From positions 1 through 20,837 of the IMG/VR virus record IMGVR_UViG_3300013297_000172: DNA of 20,837 bases. One strand, written 5' to 3'. A model generated the notes under the pieces. The model did no database searches, had not been told where the DNA came from, and saw nothing but the letters and a program-made list of their open reading frames with translations. Shown here piece after piece: positions 709-12,636 of the stretch; positions within the stretch are counted from its first letter, which is position 1, and every line of letters starts with the position of its first letter. This DNA comes from a virus. The position numbers were made by a program, and so were the translations under genes.

Positions 709-1376
709 GTATTGTTCTAATCATCGTCGGTTTGCTCCTTATCATTATCGCTGGCTATGTTCTGCTCACCAGTTACACTCACAAGCCTCAAACAGCGTCT
801 GAAAGAATTAAGACTCTCCAAGATGAAAAATATTCAACTGAAATGGGTAGGCCTGCTGCTGGAAGAGAGAGTAAGGCGGCGTTAGCACGGGCTACTTTAC
901 AGGCCGCTCTAAATGTTGAAGCCGAACAACTCGGGGTGATTGAAGATAGAAAATCTCAAGCTCAGGTTGTTGATGCCGAGCGACAAACCCAGCTAATAGA
1001 CTTTGAGAACCGGCAAAAACTTCTTCTAATCGCCGGTAGTAAGAATCTTGATGTTGGAACTTACCTTGAATTGGAAAGGAAAGCTGAGATGGACCGGCTG
1101 GAATTGCAGAAGCAATGGCAGGAGTTACAGGATGCACTTAAAGCAGGGTTCATCTACGAGCTTCGGGCCCATCAACACCTTAATCTGGTGACTGAGTATA
1201 TCGGCGGTCTTTATACCAGAGCCGAGCAACTCAAAGAAGCAGGTAAGGACAGGGAGTACAATCTAATCGAGGAACACATAGCGTTTATGGAAGGAGACTT
1301 CCGTGGCCGTCAGAGACTACTTCTATCTTCTCAACAAGAAGACCTTCAAGGAAGCGACGAAAATCCCTACGAGTGA
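705..1376 (+). CDS. Membrane-anchored coiled-coil protein
   Basis: 223 residues. Residues 2-23 form one strongly hydrophobic helix (IVLIIVGLLLIIIAGYVLL). The remainder is charged and helical, with long stretches rich in A, E, K, L, Q and R (about 34-200), fitting a cytoplasmic or periplasmic coiled coil. I do not recognise a family. It starts in the ATGA overlap with the lectin-like gene and its end overlaps the ATPase start at 1303 by 74 bases, so the three are surely co-transcribed. The ATPase downstream has no membrane helix, whereas VirD4-type coupling proteins normally do, so this protein could serve as its membrane anchor. That role is inference. Confidence 0.75.
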   Translation: MSIVLIIVGLLLIIIAGYVLLTSYTHKPQTASERIKTLQDEKYSTEMGRPAAGRESKAALARATLQAALNVEAEQLGVIEDRKSQAQVVDAERQTQLIDFENRQKLLLIAGSKNLDVGTYLELERKAEMDRLELQKQWQELQDALKAGFIYELRAHQHLNLVTEYIGGLYTRAEQLKEAGKDREYNLIEEHIAFMEGDFRGRQRLLLSSQQEDLQGSDENPYE

Positions 1377-2868
1377 AGAAATTCTAGATAAGCAAGAGAA
1401 GGGATTTCGGACAAAATACCCGCTGAGGATTTTAGGTGAAGGCAAAACAACGCTCACGATGACCGAAGAGGAGCGACCTCATGCACACCTAATCGGTTCC
1501 ACCCAAGAAGGCAAATCAAAATTCATTGAGCATCTGGTTCGTGAGGATGTGCGTCGAGGTTTTGGAGCTTGTGTTTTAGACCCGACTACCGGAGCCAAGA
1601 CTATCTATGACATCTTGCGCTGGTGCTGCGACAAAAAGGTAAAAAAGGTCTGTCTCATAGACCCACACGCTCGATGGGAATACAACAAAATAGTTGGAAT
1701 AAATCCCTTTCTATACAAAAAAGATGGTCCAAGCGATAAGCTGAAAAAGGCTTCTTTAATCAACATCACAGACACTATCCAAATTCTCTTTAATACGAAA
1801 GACCCGGCCCAGACTTCTTTTATCAATCGGTATGTTGAAGCCGTACTCAATTGTCTCTATAACGCTAGCGCCCCGCTTTCTGATGCTCGTTGTTTTACGA
1901 ATCAGGCTTACGTCAATCAACGCAAAGAAGTGCTCTCCGCCTCAAAACCGACAGACCCGCACCGGATTGACTTAGAAGAAGCGTTTAGAAACGCTAAGCA
2001 GTTTGAGCATCTTCAAACGACCATCAATCGTTTACAGGGTTTCTTCCGAGACCCTCTCAGCGCAATGCTTGGAGTGTCGCAAGGAGTTGATTTTCTACAG
2101 ATGGTAAAAGAGGGCTGGCTCATTCTAGTTAATCTAGACAGCTCCGTTGACCTCGATGTTATGGACGCTCGGCTGTTAGGTACGTTAATTATCAACCAAC
2201 TCTTGCTTGCGATGGACCGGCTGTTCTACTTGAAGAAGAACAAAGCCACTCGATTTTATTTATATGTTGATGAAGCTGGAGAGTATGCCACACGTAAATT
2301 AGCTCGGGCCTTTACTCTGAAAGCAAAGACTGGTCTTCGAGTAACAATAGGTCATCAATATTTCGGCCAGTTCGAGGATAAGTATGTTGTGGACGCCATC
2401 AACGCCCTTACAAAGATGAAAGGAATGTTCAATCTGCCGGGTCGTGAGGATAGGGATAAAGTAACGAAGATGTTCTACGGTGGAGACATTTCAGACCGAC
2501 AGGCCTCATTTGCTAATGCAGACCTTCCCCAGCAACATGCCGTTCTAAAGATACTGAAAGGTGGTCCTCAAAGAGTAAGGATACCAGATGTTCCGCCGGC
2601 TAGGTCGAGTGACGCCGACTTGCGGGAATACATAGCGCGGATTTTTGACCAGCCTTGGTACTACAATCCGCGCGACGTTAAACAAGCTCATGATATTAGA
2701 TACTTACAAACGGATTCTTCACGGACTCCATCTCGAAAAGAACATGACCGGGAGGCAGATAGCGAGACTTCTGTACCCGCAGGATTACGCCGAAGACGCC
2801 AGCAAAACCTATCAACGAGTAATGAAGAACCTCAAAAAGCTGGAGAACGACGGCCTATTAAGGTCTAA
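1303..2868 (+). CDS. VirD4/TraG-like (HerA/FtsK-type) DNA-pumping ATPase
   Basis: 521 residues from GTG, chosen because AAGGAGA sits 5 bases upstream. Walker A is GSTQEGKS (65-72). Walker B is FYLYVDEAGEY with D323-E324. A following GHQYFGQFED motif matches the glutamine-containing sensor region of type IV coupling ATPases. Such proteins bring DNA to, or drive it through, a type IV secretion channel. There is no N-terminal membrane segment, unlike typical VirD4, so it would be soluble or recruited by the neighbouring membrane proteins. The last 60 or so residues are low-complexity, basic and rich in R, S and E, and are encoded out of frame over the start of the next gene; they may be an overprinted tail or the product of a frameshift. 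ATPase family call firm, exact subfamily less so. Confidence 0.85.
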   Translation: MAVRDYFYLLNKKTFKEATKIPTSEEILDKQEKGFRTKYPLRILGEGKTTLTMTEEERPHAHLIGSTQEGKSKFIEHLVREDVRRGFGACVLDPTTGAKTIYDILRWCCDKKVKKVCLIDPHARWEYNKIVGINPFLYKKDGPSDKLKKASLINITDTIQILFNTKDPAQTSFINRYVEAVLNCLYNASAPLSDARCFTNQAYVNQRKEVLSASKPTDPHRIDLEEAFRNAKQFEHLQTTINRLQGFFRDPLSAMLGVSQGVDFLQMVKEGWLILVNLDSSVDLDVMDARLLGTLIINQLLLAMDRLFYLKKNKATRFYLYVDEAGEYATRKLARAFTLKAKTGLRVTIGHQYFGQFEDKYVVDAINALTKMKGMFNLPGREDRDKVTKMFYGGDISDRQASFANADLPQQHAVLKILKGGPQRVRIPDVPPARSSDADLREYIARIFDQPWYYNPRDVKQAHDIRYLQTDSSRTPSRKEHDREADSETSVPAGLRRRRQQNLSTSNEEPQKAGERRPIKV

Positions 2869-4034: not shown

Positions 4035-4202
4035 ATGTACCATTTTCCAGTGAATAGTTTGGAGTTTAAGAAGGGATACAGGTTGGGTGTTGAGAAAGGT
4101 AGGAGAATCGAGAGAAAGATTTGTTTGGTATTAGTTATTGGTTTCGTCTTAGTTTTTGAGATTGCTCACCGTTTGGTTGATGTGATTCGAGGTTGTGTGT
4201 AA
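4035..4202 (+). CDS. Small single-helix membrane protein
   Basis: 55 residues from ATG, with a GGAG SD 5 bases upstream. Residues 1-28 are basic (LEFKKGYRLGVEKGRRIERK), residues 29-44 form one hydrophobic helix (ICLVLVIGFVLVFEIA), and a short tail follows. By the positive-inside rule the N-terminus should be cytoplasmic. No family recognised. It stands alone between non-coding stretches and is preceded by the pseudoknot-like leader at 3980-4023, which supports its being a regulated gene. Size and shape would suit a small holin-like, exclusion or toxin-like peptide; that is speculation. Confidence 0.6.
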   Translation: MYHFPVNSLEFKKGYRLGVEKGRRIERKICLVLVIGFVLVFEIAHRLVDVIRGCV

Positions 4203-4685: not shown

Positions 4686-4841
4686 ATGTCTTTTGAGATT
4701 TTCAAACACTATCTCTTTCAGATAGAGGAAATATTGTTACTCATCGGGTGCATTATTTCCTTAGGGTTTTATATAGCCCTAACTGCTCGAAAGAAATATC
4801 AAGAATTGATTAAATCCGAACCTAAGAAGGACAAAGAATAG
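4686..4841 (+). CDS. Small single-helix membrane protein
   Basis: 51 residues. The ATG at 4686 is preferred over the in-frame ATG at 4659 because GGAGGAGG lies just upstream of it. Residues about 15-36 form a hydrophobic helix (EEILLLIGCIISLGFYIALTA), followed by a charged tail KKYQELIKSEPKKDKE that should be cytoplasmic. No family recognised. A possible promoter lies at 4463-4491. Unlike its neighbours at 4035, 7092 and 7566, I find no convincing pseudoknot over its SD. It converges with the YopX-like gene, with an imperfect inverted repeat TTTGGAATTT...AAATCCAAA (4848-4894) between them. Confidence 0.6.
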   Translation: MSFEIFKHYLFQIEEILLLIGCIISLGFYIALTARKKYQELIKSEPKKDKE

Positions 4842-4951: not shown

Positions 4952-4965
4952 AAGACTTAAGTCTT
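4952..4965. repeat. 14-bp perfect palindrome
   Basis: AAGACTTAAGTCTT is fully self-complementary and overlaps the stop codon of the YopX-like gene. With no loop it is better suited as a dimer-binding site in DNA than as an RNA hairpin. Function unknown. Confidence 0.55.
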
Positions 4966-5310
4966 TATTAACTTTGGGTCCTCATAAATGTTACCGATGA
5001 CTTCCATATCCCTAGCGAGCGACGCAGTTAGGTTTGAAAACCCAGTAATGCTTTTTAGAACTGCGAGATAAAATTCAGCGTCGTGGCCGTCCCACTGAAC
5101 TCGATAGGTGTTTCCATCGGTGTCTTGAACAAAATCCTTGTGGTAAATCTCTTTTCCGTTCTTGTCTAAGAGGCCTGTGAATTGCATAAACTTACACTCA
5201 CTTGCCAAGAAGCTGTGGTCTTTTGTGAAAATACGGATTGTGCCAGTTGATATGTCATCACACATGGTCTGAGTAATTGAGTGCCACGCTCTAAATTTGA
5301 TTGTTCTCAT
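4957..5310 (-). CDS. YopX-like phage protein
   Basis: 117 residues. The family hallmarks are present in order: N-terminal MRTIKFRAWHS (1-11), the central MQFTGLLDKNGKEIYHKDFV (about 42-61) and the C-terminal EVIGNIYEDPKLI (about 103-115). YopX-family proteins are small and common in prophages and phages, with no firmly known function. It is the last gene of the minus-strand early-type operon, 139 bases after the previous gene. That gap contains a GAGCC-GATA-GGCTC hairpin (5328-5341). No strong SD is seen. Confidence 0.8.
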   Translation of the reverse strand: MRTIKFRAWHSITQTMCDDISTGTIRIFTKDHSFLASECKFMQFTGLLDKNGKEIYHKDFVQDTDGNTYRVQWDGHDAEFYLAVLKSITGFSNLTASLARDMEVIGNIYEDPKLIKT

Positions 5311-7371: not shown

Positions 7372-7566
7372 TCAAGTCTTGGAATCGCTTTGGTCTAAGA
7401 GCTGAGGTGGTTCAGCAGGTAAAGGCTTCCGCCATTCGAACCTAATACGCCTAATGGCCCGAACCCAGATAACTCCGGTTTTTCCGATGCCTTTACCCAG
7501 ACCTTGAAGAATAAGAAGAAGTAGGCTGAAGGTGGAAAGGCCAGCCAAGGCCTCTATGACGGACAT
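7372..7566 (-). CDS. Small N-terminally anchored membrane protein
   Basis: 64 residues from ATG, with AAGGAG 6 bases upstream, an excellent SD. Residues about 5-24 are a hydrophobic helix (EALAGLSTFSLLLLILQGLG), then a glycine-rich turn, a basic segment (RAIRRIRFEWRKPLPAEPP) and a polar tail that should be cytoplasmic. No family recognised; size and charge pattern would fit a holin- or antiholin-like protein, unproven. It is divergent from the small terminase gene, and its leader (7573-7680) holds the most elaborate structured element of the window. Confidence 0.65.
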   Translation of the reverse strand: MSVIEALAGLSTFSLLLLILQGLGKGIGKTGVIWVRAIRRIRFEWRKPLPAEPPQLLDQSDSKT

Positions 7567-7992: not shown

Positions 7993-9267
7993 ATGGTCGT
8001 TATCCCTTACTCACCGAGGGAATGGGCCAACCAATTACACTCCACTACTAAACGTTGGATAGTCCTTGTCCTTCACCGTAGAGCAGGGAAGACAGTAGCA
8101 GTCCTCAATCACCTTCAACGCGACGCGCTCAAAACTCCAAACTCTCGCTTCGCTTATATCGCTCCCTTTTACAAACAAGCAAAGAATATCGCTTGGGATT
8201 TACTCAAGCTTTACGCTCGCCCAATACCAGGAATTCAATTCAATGAATCAGAACTCTCAGTCAGATATCCCAATGGCTCTAAGCTCCAACTTTATGGCGC
8301 GGACAATCCAGATTCTCTTCGTGGTATTGCTCTTTGGGGTGTCGCTTTCGATGAATACTCCCAGCAGCCCAGCAACATATTTACTGAAATCATACGTCCT
8401 GCTCTCGCTGACCATTCTGGTTACGCTATATGGATTGGTACTCCTAAGGGCAAGAATGAACTCTACCGCCTCCACCAGACAGGACTAACAGATGAGAAAT
8501 GGCTCTCAATGCTCCTCACAGCCGAAGATACAAACCTAATTCCGCATGCAGAACTCGAGGACGCTAAGAAACTGATGAGTGAGGATGAATACAACCAAGA
8601 ATTCATGTGTTCATTCGAAGCCTCAGTGAAGGGCGCCTACTACGCCACCGAACTGGTAAAGGCCAGGAAAGAGAACCGCATCAAGACAGTTCCTTACGAC
8701 CCTATTCTAAAAGTTCATACAGTTTGGGATTTGGGAGTAGGCCAGAAACTAGCCATTGGGTTTTATCAAGGCACGATGGCCGAAAGGAGAATGGTTGATT
8801 ACTGGGAAGGCGCTAACCATGACGGCATTCCCCAGGCTATCAAAGCACTTGAAAACAAAGAATACATTTATGGCAAGCACTTCCTGCCTCATGACGCCAA
8901 AGCTACCGATATCGCAACAGGCAAGACTCGACTTCAATTAGTCAAAGACCTCAAACCAACATGGACGTTTGAAGTAGTACCGATGATTTCAGTTGATGAC
9001 GGTATTCAGAGAGGCAAGCTTTTCTTCAACAAACTTTGGATAGACGAGCAGAAGTGTCAAACGTTCCTAGATTACATTTCCCAGTACCGCCAAGAGTGGG
9101 ATGACAATAAAGGAATGTTCAAAGAGAAGCCTGAGCATGACTTCACTTCACACGCCGCTGATGTTCACAGATATGCAGCAATCGTTGAAGACCTAATGAC
9201 TAACGAGATGCAAAAGACTTATGTGCAGCCAGCTTGGGAGTCAGAAACTAATTACTTTACTGCTTAG
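7993..9267 (+). CDS. terL: Terminase large subunit
   Basis: 424 residues, usual length for a packaging motor. Walker A is LHRRAGKT (27-34), Walker B is ALWGVAFDEYSQ with D120-E121, and a coupling motif WIGTPKGK follows. The C-terminal RNase H-like nuclease has three acids in the expected places: D246 (HTVWDLGVG), D301 (LPHDAK) and D390 (HAADVHRY). It pumps DNA into the prohead and cuts it, docking on the portal. It begins directly after the small subunit stop. Its last 11 bases overlap the 3' end of an antisense gene, which is unusual inside a virion operon. Confidence 0.95.
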   Translation: MVVIPYSPREWANQLHSTTKRWIVLVLHRRAGKTVAVLNHLQRDALKTPNSRFAYIAPFYKQAKNIAWDLLKLYARPIPGIQFNESELSVRYPNGSKLQLYGADNPDSLRGIALWGVAFDEYSQQPSNIFTEIIRPALADHSGYAIWIGTPKGKNELYRLHQTGLTDEKWLSMLLTAEDTNLIPHAELEDAKKLMSEDEYNQEFMCSFEASVKGAYYATELVKARKENRIKTVPYDPILKVHTVWDLGVGQKLAIGFYQGTMAERRMVDYWEGANHDGIPQAIKALENKEYIYGKHFLPHDAKATDIATGKTRLQLVKDLKPTWTFEVVPMISVDDGIQRGKLFFNKLWIDEQKCQTFLDYISQYRQEWDDNKGMFKEKPEHDFTSHAADVHRYAAIVEDLMTNEMQKTYVQPAWESETNYFTA

Positions 9268-9568
9268 TATCAGGCTTCATTCGTCGCTCGATTTCTGCGA
9301 GCAATTCGTTGTCAGAGTTATCTGATGAGGGGTTGAAGGGCATAGTGCCATATTCGATTAGGGTTAATATCTTTGTTGCGCGCTGAATTGCCTTTAGATA
9401 ATCGTTCTTAGTCAAAACAAGGTAAGTCGGGTTCTTCGGCGCTCTTGCAGGCGCTCCAGCTTGCAGCATGTCCAATCTCCTCAGTTCCGACTTAACAGAT
9501 TCAATGATGTCTTTTCTAGTAAGTCCGTGAAGGCTTTCACAAAACTCCTTAAATTCGCTGTTCAACAT
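9257..9568 (-). CDS. Antisense hypothetical protein between terminase and portal
   Basis: 103 residues from the ATG at 9568, chosen because GGAGG lies 9 bases upstream; the TTG at 9574 would be too close. Soluble and helical: MLNSEFKEFCESLHGLTRKD, IIESVKSELRRLDML, NDYLKAIQRATKILTLIEYG and a charged tail ELLAEIERRMK. No family recognised. It tail-overlaps the large terminase by 11 bases, and its start codon is only 19 bases from the portal start, so its promoter must lie inside the portal gene. A cargo (moron) or regulatory gene is likely; its transcription would be antisense to the late operon. Confidence 0.7.
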   Translation of the reverse strand: MLNSEFKEFCESLHGLTRKDIIESVKSELRRLDMLQAGAPARAPKNPTYLVLTKNDYLKAIQRATKILTLIEYGTMPFNPSSDNSDNELLAEIERRMKPDTKQ

Positions 9569-9587
9569 TTTCAATATCCTCCGCTAA

Positions 9588-11561
9588 ATGACCGAGACCG
9601 AACAAATAGTTAATCAAGTCAGAGCCGAATACAAGGCTGGTTTAGATTACCGCCACCAACGAGAAGCCGCTTGGAAGTTGGCCGAGGACCAGTATTTCAA
9701 TAAGCAGGTTAAAAGCCTTAAGCAACGCTATAACGTTCCTGTTCCGACCGTCCCCGGTTTTGTTGAAACCTTACTTTCCAAGATTGACGACCCGCCGACC
9801 TTAAAATACGAGGAAGCAGAAGACGCAGATTACAAGGCTGTCCAGAAGGCCAATGCCTTTCGTGAAGTCGAATCAAAGAAAGAAGATTATGACTGGGATA
9901 TGCTCGACCTCGACGGCAAGAAGCAAGCGATTCTGTATGGCCGCGCTATCGCAAAGTTCTTTTCACAATCCAAGCCTGAATACAAATCTAACCTAGAGCT
10001 AGTTGATGTCTACGACTTCATTGCTGACCCAATAGGCGGAGGCAATTTAGAAAAGCATCGCTTTGTGATGAATGACAACCTGTTTAAGTCGAAAGAAGAC
10101 TTGAAGCAGGGAGTGGAGAATTTAGGTTACGACGCCTCAGCAGTTGAAAAAATCATCAACTCCACCAGCCAGGACAAGATTGTTGACAACGACAACCAGT
10201 ACAAGAGTAAGCAGTCGAGAATGATGGCTCTCGGAATTGACGGCATTACCTTCAATTACGCCGGCCAAGCTCTCTACAAGTTTGTTGAAGCTGGTACGAC
10301 TTGGAATGGTGTTCGTTACTACGTTCTTTTCAATAATGAATTAGGTGTCGCAGTTAAATGCATTCCCTTAAAAAAGGTTTTCAAATCTAACCTATGGTGG
10401 TTTTCCTCGTGGGCCACACACCGGGATACGTTTAATTTCTGGTCCAAAGCACCTGTTGATGACATCGTTCCCTTGGCTGAAATGATTCGAGTCTTGGTTA
10501 ACCAGGAACTCGACAACCGCCAAAAGAAAAATTGGGGTCAAAGAGCATACGACCCTGATATGTTTCCCAATCCCGCTGAATTGCAGTGGCGGCCTGATGG
10601 CCTAGTGGCTGTTAAGAGCGGGTCGACAGTCACCCGAAGCATTGAACAAGGCGTCTATCAGTTTGAGACACCCGAGTTAAACGGAACGATAAACCTTGTT
10701 CAATACATTGATAATGTCATTGGTCAGAAGAGCGGAGTAACAGCAGATACGCAAGGCCAGAGTGACGAAGACAAGGTAGGCATTTATTACGGCAACCTTC
10801 AGCAAGTCGCCGACCGTTTAGGCCTATATAACAAGAGCTACAAGAAATTCTGGCAAGCTATCGGCCGTAGGTATGTTTGGGGACTGTTTGAACACTTACG
10901 CAGCCCAATGGCCGTCAGGATTATCGGTGAAGAAGGCGCTGAATGGGACGAGATTAAAAGAATCGAAATCAACCCCGATTGGAATATCAAAGTTGAAGGC
11001 GGTAATGCAGAACTCGCAGCCGATGAAATCAAGAAGAAGCGTCTTCAAGATATTATGGCCCAGCTACTACCTGATGAGTTGGCAATATTAAGCCCCCGGT
11101 GGAGAGCAGAGCAGAAACTCCGCGCCATCGGTGTAGAGGAAGACGACATTCGTATGGCATTCGACATTCAGAACGAAGGCAACCGGGAAATCCTGGCTGA
11201 AGCTTCACAGCTTATCCAAGACTGTCTCGCAGGTAAGCCTTACAAGTTGAACAGAGGTGCTAACACGGCATTCATTCAGAAGATTATCGATTACGCTACC
11301 GACACTGACTTACCGGACCAGGAATACATGAAGCTCATGCAGATTGCTGAGGAGCACTTACCTATCGCAGAAGAGAATATGGCTCGTAAGGCAGTACAGA
11401 TGATGGCCCAGCAAGGCACGATGCCGGGACCAGAAGCCCTTCCCGCACCGAGCGAACAGCTCTACGGCTCACCAGACGCAACAGGAGCCACGGAGACGGC
11501 TCCAAATACCCCAGCGGGTACTCAGAGCCAGTCCCAGCAGCTTACTCCGCAGGTCGTCTAA
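9588..11561 (+). CDS. Portal protein
   Basis: 657 residues, in the range of P22-like portals. It lies directly after the terminase and before scaffold and coat genes. Its N-terminus is helical (AEYKAGLDYRHQREAAWKLA). Typical portal segments include VPTVPGFVETLLSKIDDPP (about 52-70), LVDVYDFIADPIGGGN (about 144-159) and the late helical crown with EYMKLMQIAEEHLPIAEENM. The tail is rich in P, Q, S and T (about 615-657). It forms the ring at one capsid vertex through which DNA enters. No SD precedes the ATG. The end overlaps an antisense small membrane-protein gene. Confidence 0.85.
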   Translation: MTETEQIVNQVRAEYKAGLDYRHQREAAWKLAEDQYFNKQVKSLKQRYNVPVPTVPGFVETLLSKIDDPPTLKYEEAEDADYKAVQKANAFREVESKKEDYDWDMLDLDGKKQAILYGRAIAKFFSQSKPEYKSNLELVDVYDFIADPIGGGNLEKHRFVMNDNLFKSKEDLKQGVENLGYDASAVEKIINSTSQDKIVDNDNQYKSKQSRMMALGIDGITFNYAGQALYKFVEAGTTWNGVRYYVLFNNELGVAVKCIPLKKVFKSNLWWFSSWATHRDTFNFWSKAPVDDIVPLAEMIRVLVNQELDNRQKKNWGQRAYDPDMFPNPAELQWRPDGLVAVKSGSTVTRSIEQGVYQFETPELNGTINLVQYIDNVIGQKSGVTADTQGQSDEDKVGIYYGNLQQVADRLGLYNKSYKKFWQAIGRRYVWGLFEHLRSPMAVRIIGEEGAEWDEIKRIEINPDWNIKVEGGNAELAADEIKKKRLQDIMAQLLPDELAILSPRWRAEQKLRAIGVEEDDIRMAFDIQNEGNREILAEASQLIQDCLAGKPYKLNRGANTAFIQKIIDYATDTDLPDQEYMKLMQIAEEHLPIAEENMARKAVQMMAQQGTMPGPEALPAPSEQLYGSPDATGATETAPNTPAGTQSQSQQLTPQVV

Positions 11562-11677
11562 AACGGCCATTCAGCGCGAAGCACTTTTACAGCAGCGAAA
11601 ACGAACAGCAAGATAAGAAATATCTCAATGAGACCCCTTTCTATCTGGCCGTACGTCACACGCCCACGAACAGGCAT
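11558..11677 (-). CDS. Antisense small membrane protein (39 aa)
   Basis: 39 residues: a basic N-terminus (MPVRGRVTYGQIERG), a hydrophobic helix at about 16-33 (LIEIFLILLFVFAAVKVL) and the end RAEWPF. AAGGAGG lies 6 bases before the ATG, the strongest SD in the window. It overlaps the portal stop codon tail to tail. The SD is half of a GAAA-capped hairpin, so translation is probably gated. A holin-like, exclusion or toxin-like role is possible; no family recognised. Shortness is the main doubt; the SD, helix and leader structure argue for a real gene. Confidence 0.55.
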   Translation of the reverse strand: MPVRGRVTYGQIERGLIEIFLILLFVFAAVKVLRAEWPF

Positions 11678-11679
11678 AC

Positions 11680-11742
11680 GCAACCTCCTTTTTCAAGGAG
11701 TCGGTAATGCGGCCGTTACGTCTTTGTGTCTTAGCGGGTTGC
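11680..11742 (-). promoter_or_regulatory. SD-masking hairpin and outer stem
   Basis: On the minus-strand RNA, CTCCTT (11700-11695), GAAA loop, AAGGAG (11690-11685) is a perfect 6-bp hairpin with a stable GNRA tetraloop that buries the SD. An outer stem GCAACC (11742-11737) with GGTTGC (11685-11680) shares one base with the inner hairpin and encloses it plus a small GTAA...TTAC hairpin. Upstream, GGCTC/GAGCC (11789-11753) with inner AGGC/GCCT adds further structure. Opening would be needed for translation of the gene at 11677. Confidence 0.5.
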
Positions 11743-11874
11743 CTGGGACTGTGGCTCTTGGTTTGAGGCTAATGGCCTAATAATGAGCCCTGGGTGTCAA
11801 CGGCATCTGTGCTTAAGAAGATGACTTTGTTAGCGCACCGACTCGTATTCAGTTGTAAATATATTTTACTCCCA

Positions 11875-12222
11875 ATGATTGAATTAGACCAACTTAAAAA
11901 GATAGTTTTCGAACTCGATTACGACCCGGAAAGTAGGCATGAAGTTTTAGAGCTGGAGGCGAAGTTAGCCAAAGCAGCTCAGGCTGAAAATATCGCCGCA
12001 CTTCCAACCATCGCAGACTTTATCGAATACCTTACCTTCCAGAAAGAAGCCGCTGAACACCTGTTGAAAACTGATAGGACGATGACCGATAGGGAACGCG
12101 ACAAGATGTTCGAGCGCATCGACCTTACTACCCGCTTCATCTCTCTTTTTAACGGCCAGGAACGGCAAGCAGTTGAACAAGAAATTAAAGACGCCTTCGA
12201 TGTTGCAAGCACTCATCAATAA
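11875..12222 (+). CDS. Hypothetical helical protein
   Basis: 115 residues from the ATG at 11875; a GTG at 11794 would add 27 residues of unlikely composition. A -10-like TATATT (11860-11865) ends 9 bases before the ATG and no SD is present, so this may be a second leaderless gene. Acidic and helical throughout (HEVLELEAKLAKAAQAENIA; EQEIKDAFDVASTHQ). No family recognised. It opens a run of four overlapping small genes between portal and scaffold. Confidence 0.65.
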   Translation: MIELDQLKKIVFELDYDPESRHEVLELEAKLAKAAQAENIAALPTIADFIEYLTFQKEAAEHLLKTDRTMTDRERDKMFERIDLTTRFISLFNGQERQAVEQEIKDAFDVASTHQ

Positions 12223-12451
12223 AGCGAAAGAGTGGCGCATGAAGCGCAATACCGTAGTAATCGTGGCGGATATTAAAACAGGAAAAATACTGGTCAGTTA
12301 TAAGGGTAAAACGGCAAGCGGTAGTTTTGAAGACAATACCCTACGCAACATGGTCACAGGCGTAAGGTTTGAAAAATCAATGACCAACTTTTTAATAGCC
12401 ATATCACAATTAACCAAACAAGTATGCCAAGAAAACCCAAGGCTGAAGTAG
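12200..12451 (+). CDS. Small hypothetical protein
   Basis: 83 residues from the ATG at 12200; an internal ATG at 12239 is an alternative. A short amphipathic helix (LQALINKAKEWRMKR) precedes a beta-rich stretch (NTVVIVADIKTGKILVSYKG) and a C-terminal helix (SMTNFLIAISQLTKQ). It overlaps both neighbours (23 and 28 bases), typical of tightly packed phage genes. No family recognised. Confidence 0.5.
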   Translation: MLQALINKAKEWRMKRNTVVIVADIKTGKILVSYKGKTASGSFEDNTLRNMVTGVRFEKSMTNFLIAISQLTKQVCQENPRLK

Positions 12452-12636
12452 CCGGCGAGTCAGTTGAGGCGCTGGACGCCAAAATTGACGAAGCATTAAT
12501 TGAACCGAAGACGGAATTCGCAGTACATGGACCGGATGGCGGTCATATCCGCACTTATTCAATCGCTGACCAGGGCGAGAACGCCGAAGCGTTAGCTCAC
12601 CAGTACGCCGCTAAAATCGGTGGCAAAGTCCTCTAA
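12424..12636 (+). CDS. Small acidic hypothetical protein
   Basis: 70 residues: a basic start MPRKPK, an acidic middle (GESVEALDAKIDEALIEPKT) and a C-terminal region with a beta/helix pattern (HIRTYSIADQGENAEALAHQ). No family recognised. It overlaps the previous gene by 28 bases and the next by 17. Its position before the scaffold gene suggests a minor head protein or an accessory factor; this is inference. Confidence 0.6.
   Translation: MPRKPKAEVAGESVEALDAKIDEALIEPKTEFAVHGPDGGHIRTYSIADQGENAEALAHQYAAKIGGKVL

Follow-up and report, generated by a model that had tools for sequence, protein, structure and literature searches.

Antisense genes around the portal gene

The window, a viral record 20,837 bases long, carries on its plus strand a portal gene (SU10_portal, PF23899) at 9588..11561, followed after a gap of 313 bp (11562..11874) by a gene for a 115-aa protein (11875..12222) that is 82% identical in the nearest relative, the locus L001. 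Part of the gap is occupied by AS39, an open reading frame on the minus strand (11558..11677) that encodes a 39-aa single-pass membrane peptide (MPVRGRVTYGQIERGLIEIFLILLFVFAAVKVLRAEWPF) similar to a peptide of L001. The first-pass annotation had described this gene as antisense at the end of the portal gene; the two are indeed convergent, with 3' ends that overlap by 4 bases (11558-11561), but AS39 lies mostly in the gap and not inside the portal gene.

The peptide contains one hydrophobic segment, with a best 19-residue mean hydropathy of 2.59. Searches of PHROGs, Pfam, NCBIfam and PADLOC gave no family match, which leaves the toxin or lysis role suggested for it earlier without backing from these collections; the weak family matches seen for AS39 and for a second antisense gene, AS103, fell below any cut-off and none of them holds. 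Scans covering the sigma-70 consensus only returned no promoter for AS39 within 11300-12300 and no minus-strand site near the gap within 9000-12500, and neither a promoter nor a terminator of its own was found on the minus strand of the gap.

AS103 encodes 103 aa and lies on the minus strand between the terminase and portal genes (9257..9568). Its homologue in L001, at 2593-2898 on the minus strand, encodes 101 aa and is 33% identical over 96 aa (E 1.6e-10). At the same junction L002, L011 and L014 have no room for such a gene, and L015 has plus-strand ORFs. In the window and in L001 alike the start of AS103 lies about 17-20 nt away from that of the portal gene, within which the AS103 leader must therefore originate.

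Other small membrane-type ORFs with good Shine-Dalgarno (SD) sequences occur in the window at 7372-7566 (minus), 4686-4841 (plus) and 4035-4202 (plus); homology of AS39 to these was considered and rejected, the alignments not rising above shuffles. We also noted a 521-aa ORF at 1303-2868 (plus) with a TrwB_AAD_bind match (5.4e-7), unexpected beside head genes, and a YopX-family protein at 4957-5310 (minus; 1.7e-20) within a leftward block.

A hairpin over the AS39 ribosome-binding site

Read on the minus strand, positions 11700-11685 are CTCCTT-GAAA-AAGGAG, a perfect 6-bp stem of anti-SD and SD arms closed by a GAAA loop; this 16-mer, CTCCTTGAAAAAGGAG, has no further match in the window at up to 2 mismatches. 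The 3' arm is part of AAAGGAGGU (about 11683-11691, minus), the SD of AS39, which stands 5 nt ahead of the ATG at 11677-11675. Against the 16S tail AAAGGAGGU scores -12.2 kcal/mol and ranks first among the scored ORFs of the window (those of at least 38 aa, with the best 40 listed), in agreement with the earlier description of a perfect anti-SD/SD hairpin over the window's best ribosome-binding site (RBS).

Structure prediction extends the stem to 11677..11706 (minus), with outer pairs joining bases upstream of the hairpin to the spacer between SD and ATG, up to the A of the start codon. The predicted energy is -6.7 kcal/mol for the 16-mer alone and -11.1 kcal/mol for a 39-nt leader that includes the start codon, and the outer stem proposed in the first-pass annotation is thus borne out at the level of prediction. 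The z-score against shuffled sequences weakens with context (-2.55 for 39 nt, -2.28 for 50 nt and -1.49 for 91 nt), and longer predicted folds keep five of the six inner pairs, with the last G shifted out. Opening the seven SD bases in a 100-nt frame is predicted to cost 10.9 kcal/mol, consistent with the claim that the SD and start of the membrane peptide are buried, and among 194 other strong-SD starts drawn from 239 fetched viral loci, 2 have a cost as high. The 194 exclude every start with CTCCTT or TTCCTC as an arm (loop 3-8), these being the arms by which the loci had been chosen, so 2/194 is the rate among starts without an exact arm and somewhat favours AS39. For the RBS as a whole, positions -16 to -4, opening is predicted at 11.9 kcal/mol, a value equalled by 2 of 94 long ORFs; in that analysis the entry 'MCP?', which proved to be an internal start, was disregarded.

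Perfect stems of at least 6 bp with loops of 3-8 nt are common in the window (46, versus 33.9 +/- 6.8 in 20 Markov copies), so the hairpin is unremarkable in itself and what is unusual is its location on an SD. On the plus strand the palindrome also sets AAGGAG before an ATG at 11707 (19 codons), a point absent from the first-pass annotation, and fold prediction forms the stem on that strand as well. We considered an intrinsic terminator and rejected it, the stem lacking a following T run on either strand and being unlisted by terminator scans. A 50-aa plus-strand ORF that spans the hairpin (11628..11780) has no family match and is not favoured; a plus-strand gene across the hairpin was set aside, no comparable plus-strand peptide being listed in the L001 gap. 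IMG/VR scans for the anti-SD arm and for a non-pairing control arm gave at least 120 matches each. An identical hairpin and SD, the 18-mer CTCCTTGAAAAAGGAGGT, occurs in an unrelated virus contig (L018, 2462-2479, minus); this is the one further exact occurrence in IMG/VR and lies 6 nt ahead of the ATG of a 125-codon frame.

The portal locus in related phages

Portal searches of IMG/VR returned 12 loci besides the window, and another, in a Microgenomates MAG, proved to be the L004 contig. Some numbered loci are redundant: L005 corresponds to the window, L006, L007 and L017 derive from L001, L016 and L019 represent the L004 contig, and L012 is a repeat of L011 over the stretch shown. L014 is cut inside the portal gene. 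The portal relative within the Microgenomates MAG (L016) is 44% identical, and the portal profile was matched in 2 of 379 Microgenomates genomes.

L001 is the nearest relative, with a portal identity of 87%. Its structural neighbours are 82-90% identical to those of the window and its antisense genes 33-38%, a disparity expected of accessory genes. Among the 12 loci only L001 has a gap at the same place, here of 246 bp, and this gap holds a 59-codon frame on the minus strand (ATG at 5041) with a membrane segment that resembles AS39. The two peptides share 10 of 26 aligned residues (pairwise E 8e-5), and none of 1000 full shuffles of AS39 matched their alignment score of 49. Shuffling within segments matched it in 8 of 5000 cases, which lends modest support to homology. 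A score of 49 is also the highest among 184 TM-like frames of related loci, AS39 itself aside; unrelated loci supplied 1652 TM-like frames, of which none reached it against AS39 and two did against the L001 peptide. Over 25 codons the two frames differ at 16 first, 6 second and 15 third positions, which gives no clear sign of the third-position excess typical of a clearly constrained gene, and the low second-position count could be explained by hydrophobicity alone. Further AS39-like peptides were sought in IMG/VR with the 59-aa query, which recovered L001 itself only, with a two-row alignment, in 50,697 phage records and in 11 whole records, none of which yielded another apart from that of L001. 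Since a comparable peptide occupies the corresponding gap of the nearest relative, we consider it quite likely that AS39 is a real gene.

A moron is an additional gene that separates two genes found side by side in relatives, and it has its own promoter and terminator. In 9 of the 11 remaining loci the next gene abuts or overlaps the portal gene (L012 repeats L011, and L003 leaves 24 bp), while L009 has a different small plus-strand ORF at the place of AS39 and L014 is cut there; AS39 is thus an extra gene between otherwise adjacent ones, and is probably a fast-evolving, moron-like accessory gene. As a moron candidate it lies on the opposite strand. The scans of the window gap yielded no promoter or terminator for it, and in L001 a promoter-like site, TTGACA-17-TAGGAT, stands ahead of the antisense frame. 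Between that site and the antisense start, L001 also has a terminator-like hairpin, GAGAGAGGGGTTCTCTC, at 5068-5084 (minus), followed by TTGTTT, which could be an attenuator.

The AS39 hairpin was found in none of the 12 other portal loci. It was therefore not retained as a plus-strand element in relatives without the antisense frame, where its presence would have told against the first-pass annotation. It was equally absent from L001, which keeps the antisense frame; as a control of AS39 the hairpin is thus not conserved, and its function draws no support from conservation. In the L001 leader the SD is weak and open, at -5.6 kcal/mol with an opening cost of 3.1 kcal/mol. Summing SD and opening energies gives predicted net values of -1.2 kcal/mol for AS39 and -2.5 kcal/mol for the L001 peptide, a comparison of two leaders. 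Likeness between these leaders is not above chance (364/1000 and 141/1000 resamples), and neither is TTACCGA, a leader motif that they share.

Weighing the readings of the masked start

An RBS sequestered by an RNA helix is known from T4 e, soc, 49 and I-TevI and from Aeh1 mobE, as set out in PMC3014915 (section 29) and PMC2988022, with a 100-fold reduction reported for gene e. As in those leaders, the consensus SD and/or start codon of AS39 is hidden in a local leader helix, and in the folding model the AS39 leader does contain an SD-sequestering helix of the gene e type. The RBS of the T4 genes is freed by a late promoter situated within the 5' strand of the structure, whereas sigma-70 scans found none for AS39; the masked T4 genes have the same orientation as the long transcript, whereas AS39 opposes the late genes; and the T4 leaders are conserved among close phages, whereas that of AS39 is not conserved in L001. 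In being extra, placed between conserved genes, fast-evolving and absent from relatives, AS39 resembles moron-type genes (PMC7067206), which include small exclusion genes such as those of Fc02 (PMC9936078). Literature searches gave no match for antisense small membrane proteins in morphogenesis genes or for type I toxins with a sequestered SD, both being weak negatives. A type I toxin pairs a toxic peptide with a dedicated antisense RNA; in the case of AS39, late plus-strand RNA would be complementary.

The first-pass annotation had invoked the logic of RNA thermometers, and a hairpin in the 5' leader that sequesters the SD is a feature AS39 has in common with the fourU and ROSE elements (PMC10586365, PMC12857270 and PMC11182007). 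Unlike those elements, AS39 lacks four consecutive U facing its SD, the arm that pairs with AAGGAG being CUCCUU, and it does not open on heating in the model, where about 86% of SD pairing persists between 10 and 70 C (mean unpairing flat at 0.13-0.15); it has no Rfam match up to E 5, and the hairpin is missing in the relative that keeps the gene. We accordingly regard a thermometer as very improbable. The absence of the hairpin from the only relative with the gene is the strongest point against the earlier reading. A transcript-dependent switch as in T4 gene e and I-TevI, in which long leftward transcripts would be silent and a shorter one starting inside the 5' arm would be translated, invokes a published mechanism for phage late genes on long early transcripts (PMC3014915, section 29; PMC2988022) and shares the start-codon anatomy of the T4 cases, but scans for the sigma-70 consensus found no promoter-like site within or just upstream of the hairpin, and we judge this switch unlikely.

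We place at the same low level the view that AS39 is not a gene, the palindrome being either incidental or an element of the plus strand linked to the AAGGAG before ATG 11707 or to the 50-aa ORF. AS39 is short, and the stem forms on the plus strand too, where it places an SD before a 19-codon frame; yet an antisense membrane peptide recurs in the L001 gap, which holds no comparable plus-strand peptide. Marginally less probable still is a wider arrangement in which the head operon of this lineage would embed two antisense genes with mRNAs wholly complementary to the late mRNA, forming a transcription-strand switch built from accessory genes. Leftward transcription through the portal gene would then yield early accessory proteins and oppose late gene expression, late transcription would silence the AS39 mRNA, and the hairpin would act as a second lock. 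A more serious contender, though one we hold doubtful, is that the gene is real and the hairpin a chance or newly arisen palindrome without regulatory role, tolerable thanks to the strong SD. Perfect 6-bp stems are frequent in the window, the hairpin is private to the window among the 13 portal-family loci, and the SD is energetically strong enough to compete with it; against this, the AS39 SD is buried deeper than in 192 of the 194 other strong-SD starts.

The reading that we tentatively prefer, at somewhat less than even confidence, is that AS39 is a genuine moron-type gene whose hairpin statically damps an over-strong SD, without temperature sensing. In the lineage shared by the window phage and L001, AS39 would have been inserted downstream of the portal gene, ahead of the gene that follows, and a leftward transcript, itself inferred, would carry it. 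The conservation of AS103 nearby in these two phages speaks for this reading. In the AS39 mRNA the SD and start codon would fold locally into the hairpin, and the over-strong SD (about -12 kcal/mol) would roughly pay the opening cost (about +11 kcal/mol), such that translation would be lowered and not shut off and the output of membrane peptide would be kept low. L001 would arrive at a comparable predicted net energy through its weak, open SD, and it is from this comparability that we read the hairpin as a brake offsetting an over-strong SD. We likewise infer that such a brake is at work in the cell and that a low dose is what matters. Whether the hairpin has any regulatory role at all we put at about even.

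Collectively, these observations add a masked start and a gene for a small membrane protein, so far unannotated, to a phage group that is sparsely represented in annotated collections, and they reveal a lineage whose head operon contains two accessory genes in antisense orientation. As a feature the hairpin is private and of a known type; if it is functional, it would extend the T4-type masked start to an accessory gene on the opposite strand.
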